From: Chthonomonas sp.
Lineage (GTDB): Bacteria > Armatimonadota > Fimbriimonadia > Fimbriimonadales > Fimbriimonadaceae
Assembly: GCA_016788115.1 (NCBI GenBank)
Contig: JAEURR010000003.1
Location: 372,001 to 436,000 of the forward strand
Direction: 5' to 3'
DNA length: 64,000 nt
Of the stretch, positions 37,992 to 43,313 are shown one piece after another. Numbering within the stretch: position 1 is the stretch's first letter; every line of letters starts with the position of its first letter. Both the position numbers and the translations under genes were made by a program. A model generated the notes under the pieces. The model was not told where the DNA came from. It was given only the letters and a program-made list of their open reading frames with translations, and ran no database searches.

Positions 37992-39359
37992 ATGGCAAAG
38001 GGATACTCGTTTCGACAGGATGTACGAACTGGGCTCAACACAAAGCTCGACCCCCGAATCTTGGTGGGCAGCCAGCTCATGCAGCTCGGCTCGCTAGAGC
38101 TTGAGAGCGCGATCGAGACAGAGCTTGCAGAGAACCCCGCCTTGGAGCGCATTTCCGAGAGCGAGGAGCCGGTCTCGCAAGAGGAAATCCTCGCGAAACT
38201 GAATCGGGATGCCGACATCTCTCACGACTACGAGAACTACCGAAGCCGGCCCGACGGCGACGACACGCTCGACTGGCTCGACTTCGCCTCTAGCCGCGAT
38301 AGCCTCCAGGACGTGCTGGCCGGCCAGCTCTTGGCTGATGCACCGCCTGCCGAAGTCGAGCTTTACGAAATCTTGATCGGCGCAGTCAATGAGCGTGGCT
38401 ACCTGGGCGTCCCGCTAGAAGAGATTGCATTGCAGACGAACGTCTCGCTCGAAGAGGCAGAGGCAGCACTTCAGCGACTTCAAGCGTGTGAGCCAGCCGG
38501 AGTTGGCGCGCGCAACGTTGCCGAGTGTCTGTACTTGCAGCTCCGTGGGGACGATTCTCTTGAAGCCAAGATCGCCCGGTCGCTACTGAAAAACAATATG
38601 GACTACATCGTCCACCGGAACGCCAAAGCGGTTGCGCGCCAATTCTCAGTGACGCCGCAGCTCGCCGAAGCAGCCTTTGAACTTGTGTCAAGCTTGACCC
38701 CCTATCCCGGCGACGAGTACGAGTACACGGGGTCCGGCTCGAAGCCCTCTCGCGCTCAAGCGGAGATCGTCTTTGACCACACGCCGTCCGGATGGGAGAT
38801 CACCGTCCGGGGTATCCGCGCCGCGGACCTGAGGGTCTCGCGCGCCTACTCCGAGCAGATGGCCGCGCTCAAGGGCAAACACAAGATCCAGAAGGCAGAG
38901 TACGCCCACGTGAAGGCGTTCGTCCAACGGGCAGAAGTCTTCATCTCGGCGCTGGAGCAGCGCGCGCAGACCCTGCTCAAGATTGCCGATCATCTCATCC
39001 GGACACAGGGTGGATTCATCCAGACTGGACAGTTCAAGTTCCTAAACGACCTCACACGGCTCAAGCTGGCCCGCGAGATCGGGGTCCACGAAAGCACGAT
39101 TTCTCGCGCGACGATGGAGAAATGCGTTCAGATCGCAACCGGAGAAATCGTTTCGTTCGACATCTTCTTCGACTCCAGCCTGAAGGCGAGCAAGATGATC
39201 GAGGAGATCTTGCAATACGAGAACCCCAACAGCCCGCTGAGCGATGCGCGAATTGCCCAGATGCTTGAGGCGGAAGGGGTCACCATCGCCCGCCGTACTG
39301 TCAACAAGTATCGGGACAAAACCAGGCTGCTGAGTTCACGCAAGCGCAAGTCCGCGTAG
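37992..39359 (+). CDS. rpoN: RNA polymerase sigma-54 factor
   Basis: 455 residues. Region I (LVGSQLMQLGSLELESAIETELAENPAL) binds activators and the -12 element. An acidic region II follows, with the core-binding domain (GYLGVPLEEIALQTN) next. The DNA-binding part has an HTH (REIGVHESTISRATMEK) and the RpoN box ARRTVNKYR at 433-441. Length is typical. Sigma-54 needs AAA+ enhancer-binding proteins, none of which is in this window, and it often controls nitrogen, motility or envelope genes. A plus-strand hairpin terminator follows about 165 bp after the stop. Confidence 0.96.
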   Translation: MAKGYSFRQDVRTGLNTKLDPRILVGSQLMQLGSLELESAIETELAENPALERISESEEPVSQEEILAKLNRDADISHDYENYRSRPDGDDTLDWLDFASSRDSLQDVLAGQLLADAPPAEVELYEILIGAVNERGYLGVPLEEIALQTNVSLEEAEAALQRLQACEPAGVGARNVAECLYLQLRGDDSLEAKIARSLLKNNMDYIVHRNAKAVARQFSVTPQLAEAAFELVSSLTPYPGDEYEYTGSGSKPSRAQAEIVFDHTPSGWEITVRGIRAADLRVSRAYSEQMAALKGKHKIQKAEYAHVKAFVQRAEVFISALEQRAQTLLKIADHLIRTQGGFIQTGQFKFLNDLTRLKLAREIGVHESTISRATMEKCVQIATGEIVSFDIFFDSSLKASKMIEEILQYENPNSPLSDARIAQMLEAEGVTIARRTVNKYRDKTRLLSSRKRKSA

Positions 39360-39423
39360 TCTGCCCAGACTTTTTTCGGGGAGGCGTCACATTCTCGAAT
39401 CGTTTCGACGATATAGAAGTGCG

Positions 39424-39571
39424 TTTAGCAAACAATGCTGAACGGGGAGTGTGAAGCGGATAAAAGGAACCCGATAGAGGTTCGAGTATCGCAAACAGCA
39501 TTAACCGCAAACACTGAATTCTCTTACCTAGCGGGCTTCGACCTCTCCTTCCCGCTAGGTGATTTTATTTA
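39424..39571 (+). ncRNA. Small-RNA-like unit A (CUCUCC-loop)
   Basis: A non-coding stretch after rpoN containing hairpin GAACC-CGATAGA-GGTTC, an A/C-rich unpaired run and terminator ACCTAGCGGG/CCCGCTAGGT with loop CTTCGACCTCTCCTT. A possible promoter TCACATT...TATAGA lies at 39387-39417. It shares the loop with units B and C and the 8-mer CCGATAGA (39471-39478) with unit C. It could also be the rpoN 3' UTR; the 5' end is estimated. Confidence 0.4.
39526..39571 (+). terminator. Terminator of unit A (and possibly rpoN)
   Basis: Ten-bp perfect stem (39526-39535 / 39551-39560), 15-nt C-rich loop and ATTTTATTT tail. The T-rich side is on the plus strand, so it terminates rightward transcription. 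Confidence 0.85.
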
Positions 39572-39626
39572 TGACCCACAAAACCACTAAAGATATTGCT
39601 GGTTTTGCCCGAGTTAACGATTAAGA

Positions 39627-39748
39627 GTTGTGCCATCAAGGTGCGACCAAACGATCTGTGGCTACTCGGCAGAAGCAGCTCAGACGAAAGCAAAAGCAAC
39701 AAGCATCCCCAGCGGGTTTTGTCCTCTCCTTCCCGCTGGGATTTTTTT
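39627..39748 (+). ncRNA. Small-RNA-like unit B (CUCUCC-loop)
   Basis: Non-coding stretch between unit A and the ychF-like gene with A-rich segment CAAAAGCAACAAGC before the terminator CCCAGCGGG/CCCGCTGGG (39708-39716 / 39732-39740). Its loop TTTTGTCCTCTCCTT and a seven-T tail closely match unit A. A candidate -10 GATTAAGA lies at 39619-39626. It could be read through from unit A; no coding frame with a ribosome-binding site is visible. Confidence 0.4.
39708..39748 (+). terminator. Terminator of unit B
   Basis: Nine-bp stem, 15-nt loop and seven T residues on the plus strand. It ends just before the convergent 3' end of the YchF-like gene. Confidence 0.85.
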
Positions 39749-39751
39749 CGC

Positions 39752-40810
39752 CTAGCTCTTGTTGCGAATGTGGAGCAGATCGCCGTCCTGGACCACGTAC
39801 TCTTTCCCTTCGAGCCGCATCTTGCCCGCGCTGTACGCAGCATCCAGGCTCCCGAACTCGCAGTAGTGATCGTAGCTGACCGTCTCGGAGCGGATGAACC
39901 CCTTGGCGATATCCGTGTGGATGGTGCTTGCAGCCTTCAGTGCAGTCGATCCCCGGCGCAGAGGCCATGCACGCGTTTCGGACTCGCCAGCGGTGAAGAA
40001 GGTGATCAAACCGAGGGCATCGTAGAGCGCCTTAACGACTTTGGAACTGGCTGGTTCTGAGATGCCAATGCTTGCGAGGAACTCGGGTTGGTCGGCTGCA
40101 TCAAGCATCGCGATCTCTTCTTCTAGGGTCGCGCAAACTGCGAAGCTCTGGGTACCCATCGCCGCCAGTTCCTGCATACGCTTTTGGACGGATTCTCCTG
40201 GCGCGGCGGCTTCGTCCTCCCCGACGTTGAAGGCAACTACCATCTCTTTCGCGCTAAGGAACTGGTAGTTGCGTACAACGACCATATCGCCCTCATCGAG
40301 CTCCAGAGCGCGCAGTGGCTTGCCTTCCTCAAGAGACGGCTTCACCCGCTCCAAAAACTGCTTTTCGAGGTACTCCGGATGGCCGGCTTGGCGCACATTC
40401 ATGCTCTTCGCCAACTTCTCCAAACGGGTCTCGACGATCTGCAGATCCGCCAGTAACAACTCCTCATCGACCAGCGCTTGATCGCGGGCCGGATTCACCT
40501 CCGCATGATAGGGAGAGGTGTTGCTCTCAAATGCACGAACCACGTGCAGGAGCACCTCGGCCTTGCGCGCGCCATCGAGAAAACGCTGGGTGAACATCTT
40601 GCCGGGACCGCCTTGGATCGAGTCCAAATCGTCGTGAAGCACGACCGTGGCGGGGGTCACCTTCTTCGGCTTGACTTGAGCGACGATTTTGTCAAATCGC
40701 TCATCGGGCACGGGCACCGCGGTCACATCGCCCTTGGCTTGACCGCGCGCCGACGCGCGATACAGCGAGCTTCGCCCGCATTGATTGAATCCGATGAGAC
40801 CGACTTTCAT
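39752..40810 (-). CDS. Degenerate YchF/Obg-like protein (DUF933/TGS type)
   Basis: 352 residues, clearly YchF-derived: VKPKKVTPATV, EVLLHVVRAFE, the helical arm VRQAGHPEYLEKQFLERVKPSLEEG and the C-terminal TGS part (TFFTAGESETRAWPLRRG, TIHTDIAKGFIRSETVSY, EGKEYVVQDGDLLHIRNKS). However, the P-loop is GFNQCGRSS, with Arg13 in place of the invariant Lys, and the G3 box D-x-A/P-G reads DDLDS. The NxxE specificity box is also not recognisable. It is therefore a probable pseudo-NTPase that keeps the TGS and coiled-coil RNA/ribosome-binding parts. Normal YchF is an ATPase; whether another copy exists is not known. Confidence 0.8.
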   Translation of the reverse strand: MKVGLIGFNQCGRSSLYRASARGQAKGDVTAVPVPDERFDKIVAQVKPKKVTPATVVLHDDLDSIQGGPGKMFTQRFLDGARKAEVLLHVVRAFESNTSPYHAEVNPARDQALVDEELLLADLQIVETRLEKLAKSMNVRQAGHPEYLEKQFLERVKPSLEEGKPLRALELDEGDMVVVRNYQFLSAKEMVVAFNVGEDEAAAPGESVQKRMQELAAMGTQSFAVCATLEEEIAMLDAADQPEFLASIGISEPASSKVVKALYDALGLITFFTAGESETRAWPLRRGSTALKAASTIHTDIAKGFIRSETVSYDHYCEFGSLDAAYSAGKMRLEGKEYVVQDGDLLHIRNKS

Positions 40811-40833
40811 GAGAGGACCTGAGACACAGAAAC

Positions 40834-40873
40834 GCCGCCCACCCGAGGGTGCCGGCGGCTGGTCTTAGGATAC
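40834..40873 (-). promoter_or_regulatory. Promoter-like site and leader hairpin before the YchF-like gene
   Basis: On the minus strand TATCCT (40868-40873) is a -10 candidate. The following leader forms a strong stem GCCGCC/GGCGGC (40834-40839 / 40854-40859) with an inner CACCC/GGGTG. The ATG is about 25 nt further. The hairpin could be an attenuator or the terminator of the small upstream frame. Confidence 0.4.
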
Positions 40874-40884
40874 CCCGCAGAGGG

Positions 40885-41043
40885 CTATCGACCCGAAAAC
40901 TCGACTTGGACGGGCCGCCGAGGAAGCTGGCTCGGGAGCACCCAGAACAGGTACATGGTCGCCAGGAGCAAGACGAGCGGTAGCCAAACTCCCCGCATCT
41001 TGCTGCGTCCATTTGTGCTCTTTGAACCTGGCTCCACCCCCAT
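40885..41043 (-). CDS. Small single-pass membrane protein (hypothetical)
   Basis: 52 residues from ATG 41043; starts at 41082 or 40998 are alternatives. It has one hydrophobic segment (GVWLPLVLLLATMYLFWVLP) and a short C-terminal tail RPVQVEFSGR. No homologue comes to mind. Bias is compatible with coding but the frame is short. It is transcribed away from unit C, with which it shares an intergenic region. Confidence 0.35.
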   Translation of the reverse strand: MGVEPGSKSTNGRSKMRGVWLPLVLLLATMYLFWVLPSQLPRRPVQVEFSGR

Positions 41044-41108
41044 ATTATGACTCGCTAGGAAAATTCTCAAGATTGTTGTCACATTTCGGGGACTTTTTGA
41101 CCGATAGA

Positions 41109-41222
41109 CCTTTGAAAGGAGATCGCGACTCGGGGAAGCTTCATCGCACCGGCCGCGACAACAAAACCGAATACCTGCCGAGTAGCACTTGCTGTCCTCT
41201 CCCGCTACTCGGCTATTTTTTT
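41109..41222 (+). ncRNA. Small-RNA-like unit C (CUCUCC-loop)
   Basis: This lies downstream of minus-strand genes only, so its rightward transcription needs its own promoter: TCACATT (41079-41085) and GATAGA (41103-41108) match the pattern before unit A. It has a possible CCTTT-GA-AAAGG hairpin, an A/C-rich run ACAACAAAACCG and terminator GCCGAGTAGC/GCTACTCGGC with loop ACTTGCTGTCCTCTCCC. It is a stand-alone candidate sRNA, the best of the three. Confidence 0.5.
41177..41222 (+). terminator. Terminator of unit C
   Basis: Ten-bp perfect stem (41177-41186 / 41204-41213) and a T-rich tail of seven T on the plus strand. On the minus strand it may also help end the M1 peptidase transcript. Confidence 0.85.
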
Positions 41223-41225
41223 GCC

Positions 41226-43313
41226 TCAGCTTCCCTTGGTTGGTACGTAGCGGAAGGGCAGCACGGTCGCTCCGCCCGGAGTTCCGTTCCCCGAAGGGAG
41301 CGTCGCAGCAAACGCACTCAATTCACCGTCCAGAGCGACGCCCGCCGTGGAGGTCACCGTGTCCGCGATGACGACTTCGTACTCTCCTTCAGCCATCTTG
41401 CTCGGAAGCGTGAGCGTTACGCGCTTGTTCGTGGCGTCGTAGGCATATGCCTTGGGAAGCACTTCGCTCGTCAGCTTGTTCCGGACGGTGAACGCAGCAC
41501 TGGTGGCGTTGACCGCCGACTGGAACTGGAGCGTGATCGTTCGGCTGCGGTTCGCGAGGTTCCCGCCCGGCGCAGGCGTCGATGCCACCAGCACCGGAGG
41601 GCCGGCAACGTAGGCCGCCGTCGTCAAACCAGTCGCGAGGACCCACGTGTCCGGGTCCAGACTCACCGCCGATGGTGTCGCAGAAACTGGAATGACGTAC
41701 CACTGGTCGCCGACGGCGTTATTCCAAATCTTGCGCCGCGTCGTCACACCCCCGATCGTCGTCTGTAGGTCGATCGGCATGCGGAACTTGGGATAACTGG
41801 CGCTCTGCTTTTGGCTGACTTGTAGAAGCAGGTAAGTTTGGCCGCCCGCCGTCGTGGCCGAAGTACCATACGTGTACGATGGCGCACCGATATCGTAGAT
41901 CCATGGATCGAAGAACCAGCGTAAGGAACCGCCGTAGCGCGCCTCGGCCACAGCGATGAAATCTTCCGTGTCCGCGGTCGAGTAGCCATAGGCCGCACGG
42001 TAGTCAGCGAGAGTCCCGAAGAACGCAGTATCGCCCAGAATCGACCGTAGCATGTGCAGAACCCAGCCCGGTTTGCGGTACGAGAAGCTCGTGCTGAAGA
42101 TCCGGTTGACGTCGGTGGTGACGTAGCAATAGACCGAGCCGTTGACGCTCGACGGACGGAGGCTCGACATCGTGCTCTTGAGCGCGGCGAGTCCCGTCGA
42201 TCCCGGTTTGAACTCGCTCCACAGCGCCTCGGAGTAGGTCGCAAAGCCTTCGTTCAGCCAGATATCACTCCACGTCGCGCAAGTGACCAGATCACCCCAC
42301 CACTGGTGCCCCAGTTCGTGAGCGTTGACCGACTCCCAGAAGCCACCCATCCCGGTGGAAGTCTGGTGCTCCATGCCACCGCTAAACGTGAACTGATAGA
42401 TGCCGTATTTCTCGTTGAGGAACGGGTACGGACCGTACTTACTGCTGAGGGTCCCCAGGATGGTCTTGGCCGTCTTCCATGCGTTGCGGTTGGCGGTCAA
42501 GTCGTACTCGGGCCAGATCCAGTAGTCCAGTGGCATGCTGCCGGTCGAGTGGGTGTAGGTGTCAGTGAAGTTGTTGAAGTTCGTGACCGCGATGAAGACC
42601 AGGTACGGCGAGATCGGGTAGTTCGACTTCCAGCGGTACCGCGAACGCGTTGTGTCCACGACATCCACCCCCTGGAGGATGCCGTTACTAACGCCCTTGA
42701 GCGTATTCGGGCATGTGATCGCCACGTCGGCTAGGAACTTGTCGGTGTTGTCGTCCTTGGTCGGCCACCATGTGGAGGCGTAGTAGGGCTCGCTCAACGA
42801 GAAGACGTACGGTGCTCCCGAATGAGTCCCAAACTCGATGCTGCCGAGACCGACGGCGGTAGCAAGGCCATCGTAGCCAATCTGCAGCGAGAAGACCGTA
42901 TTCACTCCGTACGCGACATCGAAGTTTGCGACGACATTGCGCGAATCTTCGCGTGTGAACGTGATGGTGCGTCCATCCAGCTTTAGGCTGGTGATGGTGT
43001 AGTTCGAGTCGAGCTGAAATCGGAACTGGTTGAAGCCCGGCGACAGCACGCGGGCGGTGATGATGTTGGTGCCGACGATCCGCTTGTTCGTTTGCGGCGT
43101 GACCTCCAAGCTCAGGCTATTGGCCAGGACATCCGTTTCACCCACCGCGCGAAAGGCAGTGGTGAACCCCTCCGACCGCTTACGGCTCATCATCTCGGCC
43201 CATCGTTCGGCAGCAGCGCTCTTACCGCAACCATCGGGAGCAGGATCGGACGGGAGCGCCCAGGCAGCAGACGCGGCGAGGCCACAAACAACAAGCAGCT
43301 TACGAATCAACAT
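41226..43313 (-). CDS. Secreted M1-family metallopeptidase with C-terminal Ig-like domain
   Basis: 695 residues from ATG 43313, which gives a signal peptide (MLIRKLLVVCGLAASAAWA). The M1 core has the GGMEHQT exopeptidase-type box, the zinc site HELGHQWWG (H332, H336) and the third ligand E355 in NEGFATYSE. After the catalytic part a domain of about 100 residues (PPVLVASTPAPGGNLANRSRTI...) looks like the bacterial Ig-like SbsA/Big_5 type. It is an extracellular aminopeptidase of the gluzincin clan. A hairpin covers the region just before the start. Confidence 0.92.
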   Translation of the reverse strand: MLIRKLLVVCGLAASAAWALPSDPAPDGCGKSAAAERWAEMMSRKRSEGFTTAFRAVGETDVLANSLSLEVTPQTNKRIVGTNIITARVLSPGFNQFRFQLDSNYTITSLKLDGRTITFTREDSRNVVANFDVAYGVNTVFSLQIGYDGLATAVGLGSIEFGTHSGAPYVFSLSEPYYASTWWPTKDDNTDKFLADVAITCPNTLKGVSNGILQGVDVVDTTRSRYRWKSNYPISPYLVFIAVTNFNNFTDTYTHSTGSMPLDYWIWPEYDLTANRNAWKTAKTILGTLSSKYGPYPFLNEKYGIYQFTFSGGMEHQTSTGMGGFWESVNAHELGHQWWGDLVTCATWSDIWLNEGFATYSEALWSEFKPGSTGLAALKSTMSSLRPSSVNGSVYCYVTTDVNRIFSTSFSYRKPGWVLHMLRSILGDTAFFGTLADYRAAYGYSTADTEDFIAVAEARYGGSLRWFFDPWIYDIGAPSYTYGTSATTAGGQTYLLLQVSQKQSASYPKFRMPIDLQTTIGGVTTRRKIWNNAVGDQWYVIPVSATPSAVSLDPDTWVLATGLTTAAYVAGPPVLVASTPAPGGNLANRSRTITLQFQSAVNATSAAFTVRNKLTSEVLPKAYAYDATNKRVTLTLPSKMAEGEYEVVIADTVTSTAGVALDGELSAFAATLPSGNGTPGGATVLPFRYVPTKGS

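Follow-up and report, generated by a model that had tools for sequence, protein, structure and literature searches.

The window analysed here, the whole 64,000-nt stretch of contig JAEURR010000003.1 (GCA_016788115.1, positions 372,001 to 436,000), comes from a genome that we take to be Fimbriimonadaceae-like Armatimonadota. It carries three plus-strand units (A, B and C) which, together with a fourth copy (D) on another contig, belong to a family of predicted small RNAs (sRNAs). Computationally, we found for this family a covarying terminator stem, a constant loop, near-restriction to one taxonomic family, a promoter-like box, complementarity to the loop that is enriched on PEP-CTERM genes, and a gene for Hfq. 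The identity of A-D as sRNAs is well supported by sequence comparison; beyond it, we infer their transcription, their use of Hfq, their repressive action and a physiological role. On balance we judge it probable that A-D are trans-acting, probably Hfq-assisted sRNAs whose terminator loop works as an anti-Shine-Dalgarno (anti-SD) seed against PEP-CTERM mRNAs. Ten letters of the loop are exactly complementary to the ribosome-binding sites (RBS) of genes for secreted, surface-type proteins and, because of this match, probably silence them.

A first-pass annotation of the window had pointed to three plus-strand terminators with different stems and a shared loop, and we could confirm these hairpins. 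That of unit A (39524..39562, +) has a stem of 12 base pairs and the loop CTTCGACCTCTCCTT (39536-39550), that of unit B (39708..39740, +) a stem of 9 base pairs and the loop TTTTGTCCTCTCCTT (39717-39731), and that of unit C (41177..41213, +) a stem of 10 base pairs and the loop ACTTGCTGTCCTCTCCC (41187-41203). A T-rich tail lies behind each of them, running to 39748 in B and to 41222 in C and interrupted in A (TTTTATTTA). The loops are 15-17 nt long, and each window unit has one CCUCUCC, seen only in the terminator loop; that of unit C is unpaired in the predicted RNA fold. The stretch ahead of the stems is A/C-rich, as the annotation had noticed, and it is also conserved in relatives. We delimit unit A as a predicted sRNA of ~150 nt (39425..39571, +), its 5' end placed from a promoter-like box, unit B as a predicted sRNA at 39600..39748 (+), and unit C as a predicted independent sRNA of ~115 nt (41109..41222, +). 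The folds of A and B have z-scores of -4.0 (0 of 200 shuffles equally stable) and -2.6, and the covariance model R2, introduced below, gives A, B and C 34.4, 56.4 and 66.3 bits. Unit D (G000:C5:508131-508299) is 96% identical to C over 169 nt and is flanked by genes that by eye look like enolase and fliS, each encoded on the opposite strand. Minus-strand genes flank unit C on both sides as well, and no co-directional gene lies upstream of C or D. The expectation that C needs a promoter of its own agrees with a promoter-like box ahead of it.

The motif TCCTCTCC alone is not rare (6 matches in the window vs 3.1 expected). When a T run comes behind it, it becomes rare: the pattern CCTCTCCN{6,26}TTTTT hits the 2.4 Mb genome only three times, at B, C and D. 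By our scan rule, 464 kb of this genome contain 11 strong intrinsic terminators, including B and C. Five of these have a loop of at least 7 nt; the loops of B and C are C-rich and the other three are not. A general preference of terminator loops was rejected by this local census, and chance loops by the genome-wide pattern counts and the covariation described below. A plasmid-borne element was also considered and rejected, as unit C matched no plasmid.

A BLASTN search with unit C recovered relatives from two genera, its own (G070, G071) and one other (G036). A covariance model of 4 sequences (R1) matched 58 places in 31 of the 85 genomes of the taxonomic family (E up to 1), and 47 of the 58, read individually, carry the exact CCTCTCC on differing stems. 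A second model, built from 44 sequences (R2), has matches in 54 of the 85 genomes (E up to 0.1). Across the 291 genomes searched for the phylum, 47 have a match at E up to 0.01, and all matches below 1e-6 fall in the family of the window. Plain terminators that lack the loop are among the weaker matches, so a structure-free pattern search comes closer to the real number of carrier genomes. In this search TGTCCTCTCCN{6,24}TTTTT was present at 54 distinct places in 33/85 family genomes vs 4 control counts, and outside the family at 15 places in 13/206 genomes vs 31 control counts, which is chance level (distinct places and control counts were summed by hand). Covariance-model matches coincide with 48 of the 54 family places, and the pattern matches in G012 form no hairpin. 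At most six matches were found per genome, with tandem copies in several genomes.

An alignment of 75 units (A5) shows how stem and loop have evolved. In it 98.5% of 662 cells are paired, vs 28-43% for slid structures, and double changes occur in all nine pairs (236 cells), a level that 0 of 500 shuffles reach. The 75 units have 66 different 5' stem arms, and the loop columns from TG to CCTCTCC are 90-100% constant; exact CCTCTCC is present in 67 units and TGTCCTCTCC in 52. The constant core is (U)GUCCUCUCC, of which unit A carries the variant GACCUCUCC. Loop constancy in A5 is partly due to selection of the input, as it comes from 67 chosen sources and loci without a C/U-rich loop, and a few others, were excluded; the structure-free pattern search is free of this selection and, to a lesser degree, so is the count of 47 in 58 from R1. 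The proposal that the loop is conserved independently of its hairpin stands, since in the relatives recovered by covariance-model search the stems vary and the loops do not vary freely.

Weak matches were read as well. Outside the family, those of G085 and G150 are ordinary terminators without the loop (G093, G106, G238 and G239 were left out), and a wider distribution was rejected. Within the family, the weak hits G007, G011, G045b, G058, G070x, G070y, G078b, G084b, G084c, G040b, G055b and G000 C7 were discarded as plain terminators of the same kind. C/U-loop relatives whose loop sequences differ are present in the sister family f2 (G153, G155), and the hairpin of G155 is shared with G036. 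In G153, two tandem units (L101:25-388, +) have the C/U-rich loops CTCTCTCCTCTCTCC and CCTCTCTCTCC; both follow a TGTCACA box, and a SelB-like open reading frame (ORF; MAYLIGTAGHVDHGKTT, by eye) lies just downstream. A tRNA-trailer origin of the L095 unit, suspected by eye, was abandoned because ARAGORN detected no tRNA. The annotation had ranked the units as a candidate for an undescribed system; no Rfam 15 family matched over them at gathering score, nor at E up to 5 for window positions 39300-41300. Hfq is encoded in 82 of the 85 family genomes, including that of the window, so that both features of Hfq-class sRNAs, a rho-independent terminator with a U tail and an encoded Hfq, are present.

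The annotation had likened the units to base-pairing sRNAs whose C-rich loops target GGAGAGG sites, and the genome of the window supports this, as GGAGAGG ribosome-binding sites exist there, almost only on PEP-CTERM genes. The pattern GGAGAGGN{2,9}ATGA occurs in this genome at 15 places vs 7 control counts. Six places open short frames only (3-52 amino acids), and nine longer ORFs stand behind GGAGAGG(N2-9)ATGA. A signal-peptide-like stretch opens all nine, and the C-terminus of eight is of PEP-CTERM type; on these eight, PF07589 scores at or above cut-off in six and 0.1 bit below it in one, and is unmatched in L240, where the motif is visible by eye. The ninth (L236) stops at 66 amino acids. 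Because ATGA in the pattern favours secreted proteins, we corrected for this bias by using the local rate of 8 in 110 ATGA genes, at which eight of nine has a binomial probability of 6.6e-9. Ungapped pairing to the loop extends over 10 nt in four of the nine leaders and over nine nt in two more, with loop-leader duplexes of -12.2 to -18.7 kcal/mol. A conserved, unpaired C/U-rich seed complementary to the RBS of a gene set, as in anti-SD sRNAs, is thus found here. In total, the genome has 56 PEP-CTERM matches.

The comparison of PEP-CTERM genes across genomes used simple ORF and start-choice rules of our own, with weak signal peptides (hydropathy <1.5) dropped. The sample consists mostly of the best-scoring listed matches of 17 genomes, plus all those found in the 464 kb of the own genome, and a genome is called unit-free when it has no R2 match at E up to 0.1. 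Loop-SD energy is stronger at 39 PEP-CTERM genes of the own genus than at 298 non-PEP genes of the own genome (p=7e-4), and also at 18 PEP-CTERM genes of other unit-bearing genera (p=0.0015); the 39 PEP-CTERM genes of unit-free genomes show no significant excess (p=0.14). Permuted loops equal the real loop on PEP-CTERM starts in 0 of 40 cases. Energies below -12 kcal/mol are reached at 10/39 own-genus PEP-CTERM genes vs 1/39 in unit-free genomes (p=0.007).

The sRNA units and some PEP-CTERM genes also have a promoter-like box in common. In unit A it is (C)GTCACA-N14-CGACGATATAGA (39385..39416, +), with GTCACA at 39386, just 3' of the rpoN stop codon; in unit C it is TTGTCACA-N14-TGACCGATAGA (41076..41108, +), and the same box is present in copy D (L011). 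The TCACATT noted earlier upstream of A and C is part of this box. The 8-mer CCGATAGA, also noted, is indeed shared by A and C, but not at homologous positions, since it lies in the presumed -10 region of C and inside the presumed transcript of A, and we rejected it as a common element. The spacing of the box is fixed in A, C and D, and several relatives carry TGTCACA-N15-GACAATA. No TGTCACA box was seen ahead of unit B, which could be a product of unit A processing or of rpoN read-through. With at most one mismatch, TGTCACA-N15-GACAATA was found at 61 places in 29/85 genomes, 11 of them exact, vs 13 control counts (hand totals). Among 62 box hits examined, a PEP-CTERM ORF lies just behind 21 (19 distinct, as a gene and a twin genome each enter twice) and a C-loop hairpin behind 6; having been derived from sRNA units, the box is in part bound to hit sRNAs, which does not apply to the PEP-CTERM hits. 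In the 464 kb there are six copies of the box in its local form, at A, at C, at two PEP-CTERM genes and at two others, and 0/372 non-PEP ORFs there carry it in the 300 nt upstream. Outside the 464 kb, a third box of this genome precedes a PEP-CTERM gene (L277). An exact hit lies ahead of a sigma-70-type gene (L145), and an ECF-like (extracytoplasmic function) sigma gene adjoins the C-type unit of G070. On inspection, we saw in the boxes no GG-N10-GC of the kind that marks the sigma-54 -24/-12 element. We also observed that the box is likely the PEP-CTERM promoter of this taxonomic family (L126, L132, L150, L162 and others), unlike the sigma-54 type of Proteobacteria. In G006 (G006:C1:615832-616047), two TGTCACA-type boxes stand in tandem ahead of a PEP-CTERM gene, and a plain terminator hairpin with the loop GCCT follows the first of them; this element is perhaps a different sRNA or an attenuator.

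Several observations weigh against an anti-SD family directed at PEP-CTERM genes. The rank test of energies against unit-free genomes is borderline (p=0.048). The exact site is present on a minority of PEP-CTERM genes, 4/39 sampled in the genus, 0/18 in other unit-bearing genera and 1/39 in unit-free genera. GGAGAGGACATG is enriched across the taxonomic family (29 places vs 5 control) and is not commoner in unit-bearing genomes, the 33 pattern-positive genomes holding 12 of the 29 places listed and G012 two more. On RBS at large, the loop is only modestly better than permuted ones, of which, depending on threshold, 6 to 29 of 60 do as well. Further, the promoter box precedes 0/8 of the GGAGAGG genes, and 0/6 named relatives (RpoN 41-47% identical, two with little or no DNA behind rpoN) have a unit at the rpoN locus. 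Given the few exact sites, the lack of a unit-linked excess of GGAGAGGACATG and the modest edge over permutations, the PEP-CTERM target class is well supported in the own genome and weak elsewhere. Outside this genome there may have been drift in the loops or in the targets, or the RNAs may act on different mRNAs.

These points leave some room for another explanation, which we consider unlikely, in which the RNAs are real and the loop is a general anti-SD seed for many mRNAs, in stress for instance, with no special link to PEP-CTERM. Any purine-rich SD can pair with a C/U-rich loop, permuted loops have partners as well, and the exact site is missing from most PEP-CTERM genes outside the genus; however, in the own genome it is almost confined to PEP-CTERM genes, GGAGAGG being present in 0/298 local non-PEP genes, and the promoter class is common to sRNAs and PEP-CTERM genes. 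It is more doubtful still that the loop binds a protein or another RNA rather than mRNA leaders, the SD match being a by-product of C/U-richness. Stem-independent conservation would be expected in that case too, and the sister-family variants retain C/U richness and not the exact sequence, which, like the perfect ten-nt complementarity to four candidate target leaders and nine nt in two more, argues for pairing with mRNA. That the units are ordinary terminators of rpoN or neighbour mRNAs, with chance or lineage-biased loops, is strongly disfavoured: rpoN does precede A and B, and units of three other genomes too, but C and D have no co-directional upstream gene, so that not all three window units are ordinary mRNA 3' ends, and the lack of the loop on other terminators of the genome, the covariation and the family-wide enrichment all speak against it. 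Equally improbable is a small mobile or repeated element bringing its own terminator, since the near-identity of C and D at unrelated places and the tandem copies are set against few matches per genome, stems diverged with compensatory changes, and surroundings of C and D in which no element-encoded gene was visible by eye.

In the mechanism that we favour, pairing of an anti-SD loop with PEP-CTERM mRNAs, each unit would end in an intrinsic terminator whose loop presents (U)GUCCUCUCC. The stem would merely display the loop and terminate transcription, so that its sequence would be free to change. Up to 10 nt of the loop would pair with GGAGAGGACA at the RBS of a set of PEP-CTERM mRNAs and this pairing would block their translation, with Hfq probably bound to the A-rich stretch and the U tail. 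At least A, C and D would be transcribed from a promoter class common to some PEP-CTERM genes, through which the sRNAs and their target class would form one regulon.

Regarding the neighbourhood, units A and B are directly 3' of the rpoN (sigma-54) gene (37992..39359, +; TIGR02395, 289.8 bits, above cut-off), and both could partly be the 3' end of the rpoN mRNA. Six units in 4 genomes of two genera sit no more than ~450 nt behind an RpoN box. In G070, the first rpoN-linked unit (L020:6364-6425, +) has the loop without a proper T tract, and for this reason it may form with the next unit one RNA bearing two anti-SD loops. Between B and C lies a YchF-like gene (39752..40810, -; TIGR00092, 240 bits, below the cut-off of 279), and such a gene also adjoins a C-type unit in G071. 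The start of its protein (MKVGLIGFNQCGRSSL) has a P-loop that looks degenerate by eye, and the protein is possibly a divergent paralogue. Unit C is also adjoined by a gene for a 37-amino-acid single-span membrane protein (MRGVWLPLVLLLATMYLFWVLPSQ..., window 40885-40998, -), and similar small proteins were seen by eye beside the C-type units of G070, G071 and G036 (L014, L013, L015).

The family A-D would work like two described groups of RNAs, by analogy and without homology to either. In the excerpts of PMC4132741 on which we draw, LhrC of Listeria monocytogenes is multicopy, 111-114 nt long and reported to bind Hfq, with three redundant C/U-rich (UCCC) sites in loop A, a single strand and the terminator loop. 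On that partial account, the shared traits are multiple copies, a C/U-rich motif in the terminator loop and pairing at the start of surface-protein mRNAs. LhrC copies, however, are almost identical, Gram-positive and under LisRK control, whereas here one constant loop sits on different stems, in another phylum and with another promoter class, and no sequence relation is shown; the three-site arrangement is absent from the window units, where the motif was seen in the terminator loop only. For the alphaproteobacterial alpha-r14 RNAs (RFMSmelA075-A099), excerpts of PMC3927594 and PMC10746234 describe three or four hairpins per RNA, every one with the motif CCUCCUCCC, and for NfeR1 an Hfq-independent silencing of mRNAs at the translation start. 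An ultraconserved anti-SD loop motif on strongly differing stems is, within these excerpts, common to both families; here, in contrast, the motif (U)GUCCUCUCC is confined to the terminator loop, and the window units, each with a single CCUCUCC, do not have repeated CCUCCUCCC hairpins. Proteobacterial control of PEP-CTERM genes, in the portions of PMC1569441 and PMC9850573 that we used, relies on sigma-54 and PrsK/PrsR. There, as here, a dedicated promoter element precedes many PEP-CTERM genes, and here rpoN adjoins A and B; nevertheless TGTCACA-N15-GACAATA is not of the sigma-54 -24/-12 form, and those portions describe no sRNA arm. Haft et al. 2006 (PMC1569441), in the part used, note that further PEP-CTERM regulators and motifs remain to be found.

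In the open-access literature we found no sRNA described for Armatimonadota/Armatimonadetes or Fimbriimonas, and, among the papers listed for CCUCUCC, none on a bacterial sRNA; two papers there contain PEP-CTERM along with sRNA terms. The family, absent from Rfam, appears undescribed. In enterobacteria, the sigma-E envelope regulon includes MicA and RybB, sRNAs made from the same promoter class that silence surface proteins, with the seed at the RNA 5' end in these Gammaproteobacteria. The family A-D is similar in that a promoter class yields sRNAs against surface-protein mRNAs, and different in its sigma factor, its terminator-loop seed and its phylum. We tentatively suggest, as a possibility to which we give little weight, that one sigma-factor regulon remodels the cell surface, in which the TGTCACA-N15-GACAATA promoter would drive one PEP-CTERM set together with the anti-SD sRNAs, and these would silence a second PEP-CTERM set with GGAGAGGACA leaders. 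The box-bearing and GGAGAGG gene sets show no overlap in the own-genome sample (0/8), and the three box-bearing PEP-CTERM genes of this genome start 34-38 nt behind GTCACA, so that their mRNAs may have next to no leader and elude the sRNAs. The predicted targets are numerous, and little is known of how PEP-CTERM genes are controlled outside Proteobacteria. With a seed that stays constant while the stems change freely, the family offers a clean natural test of how much of an sRNA targeting requires, and the hypothesis names exact base pairs open to mutation. If true, the surface regulon would follow a logic like that of sigma-E and MicA, independently evolved in Armatimonadota.

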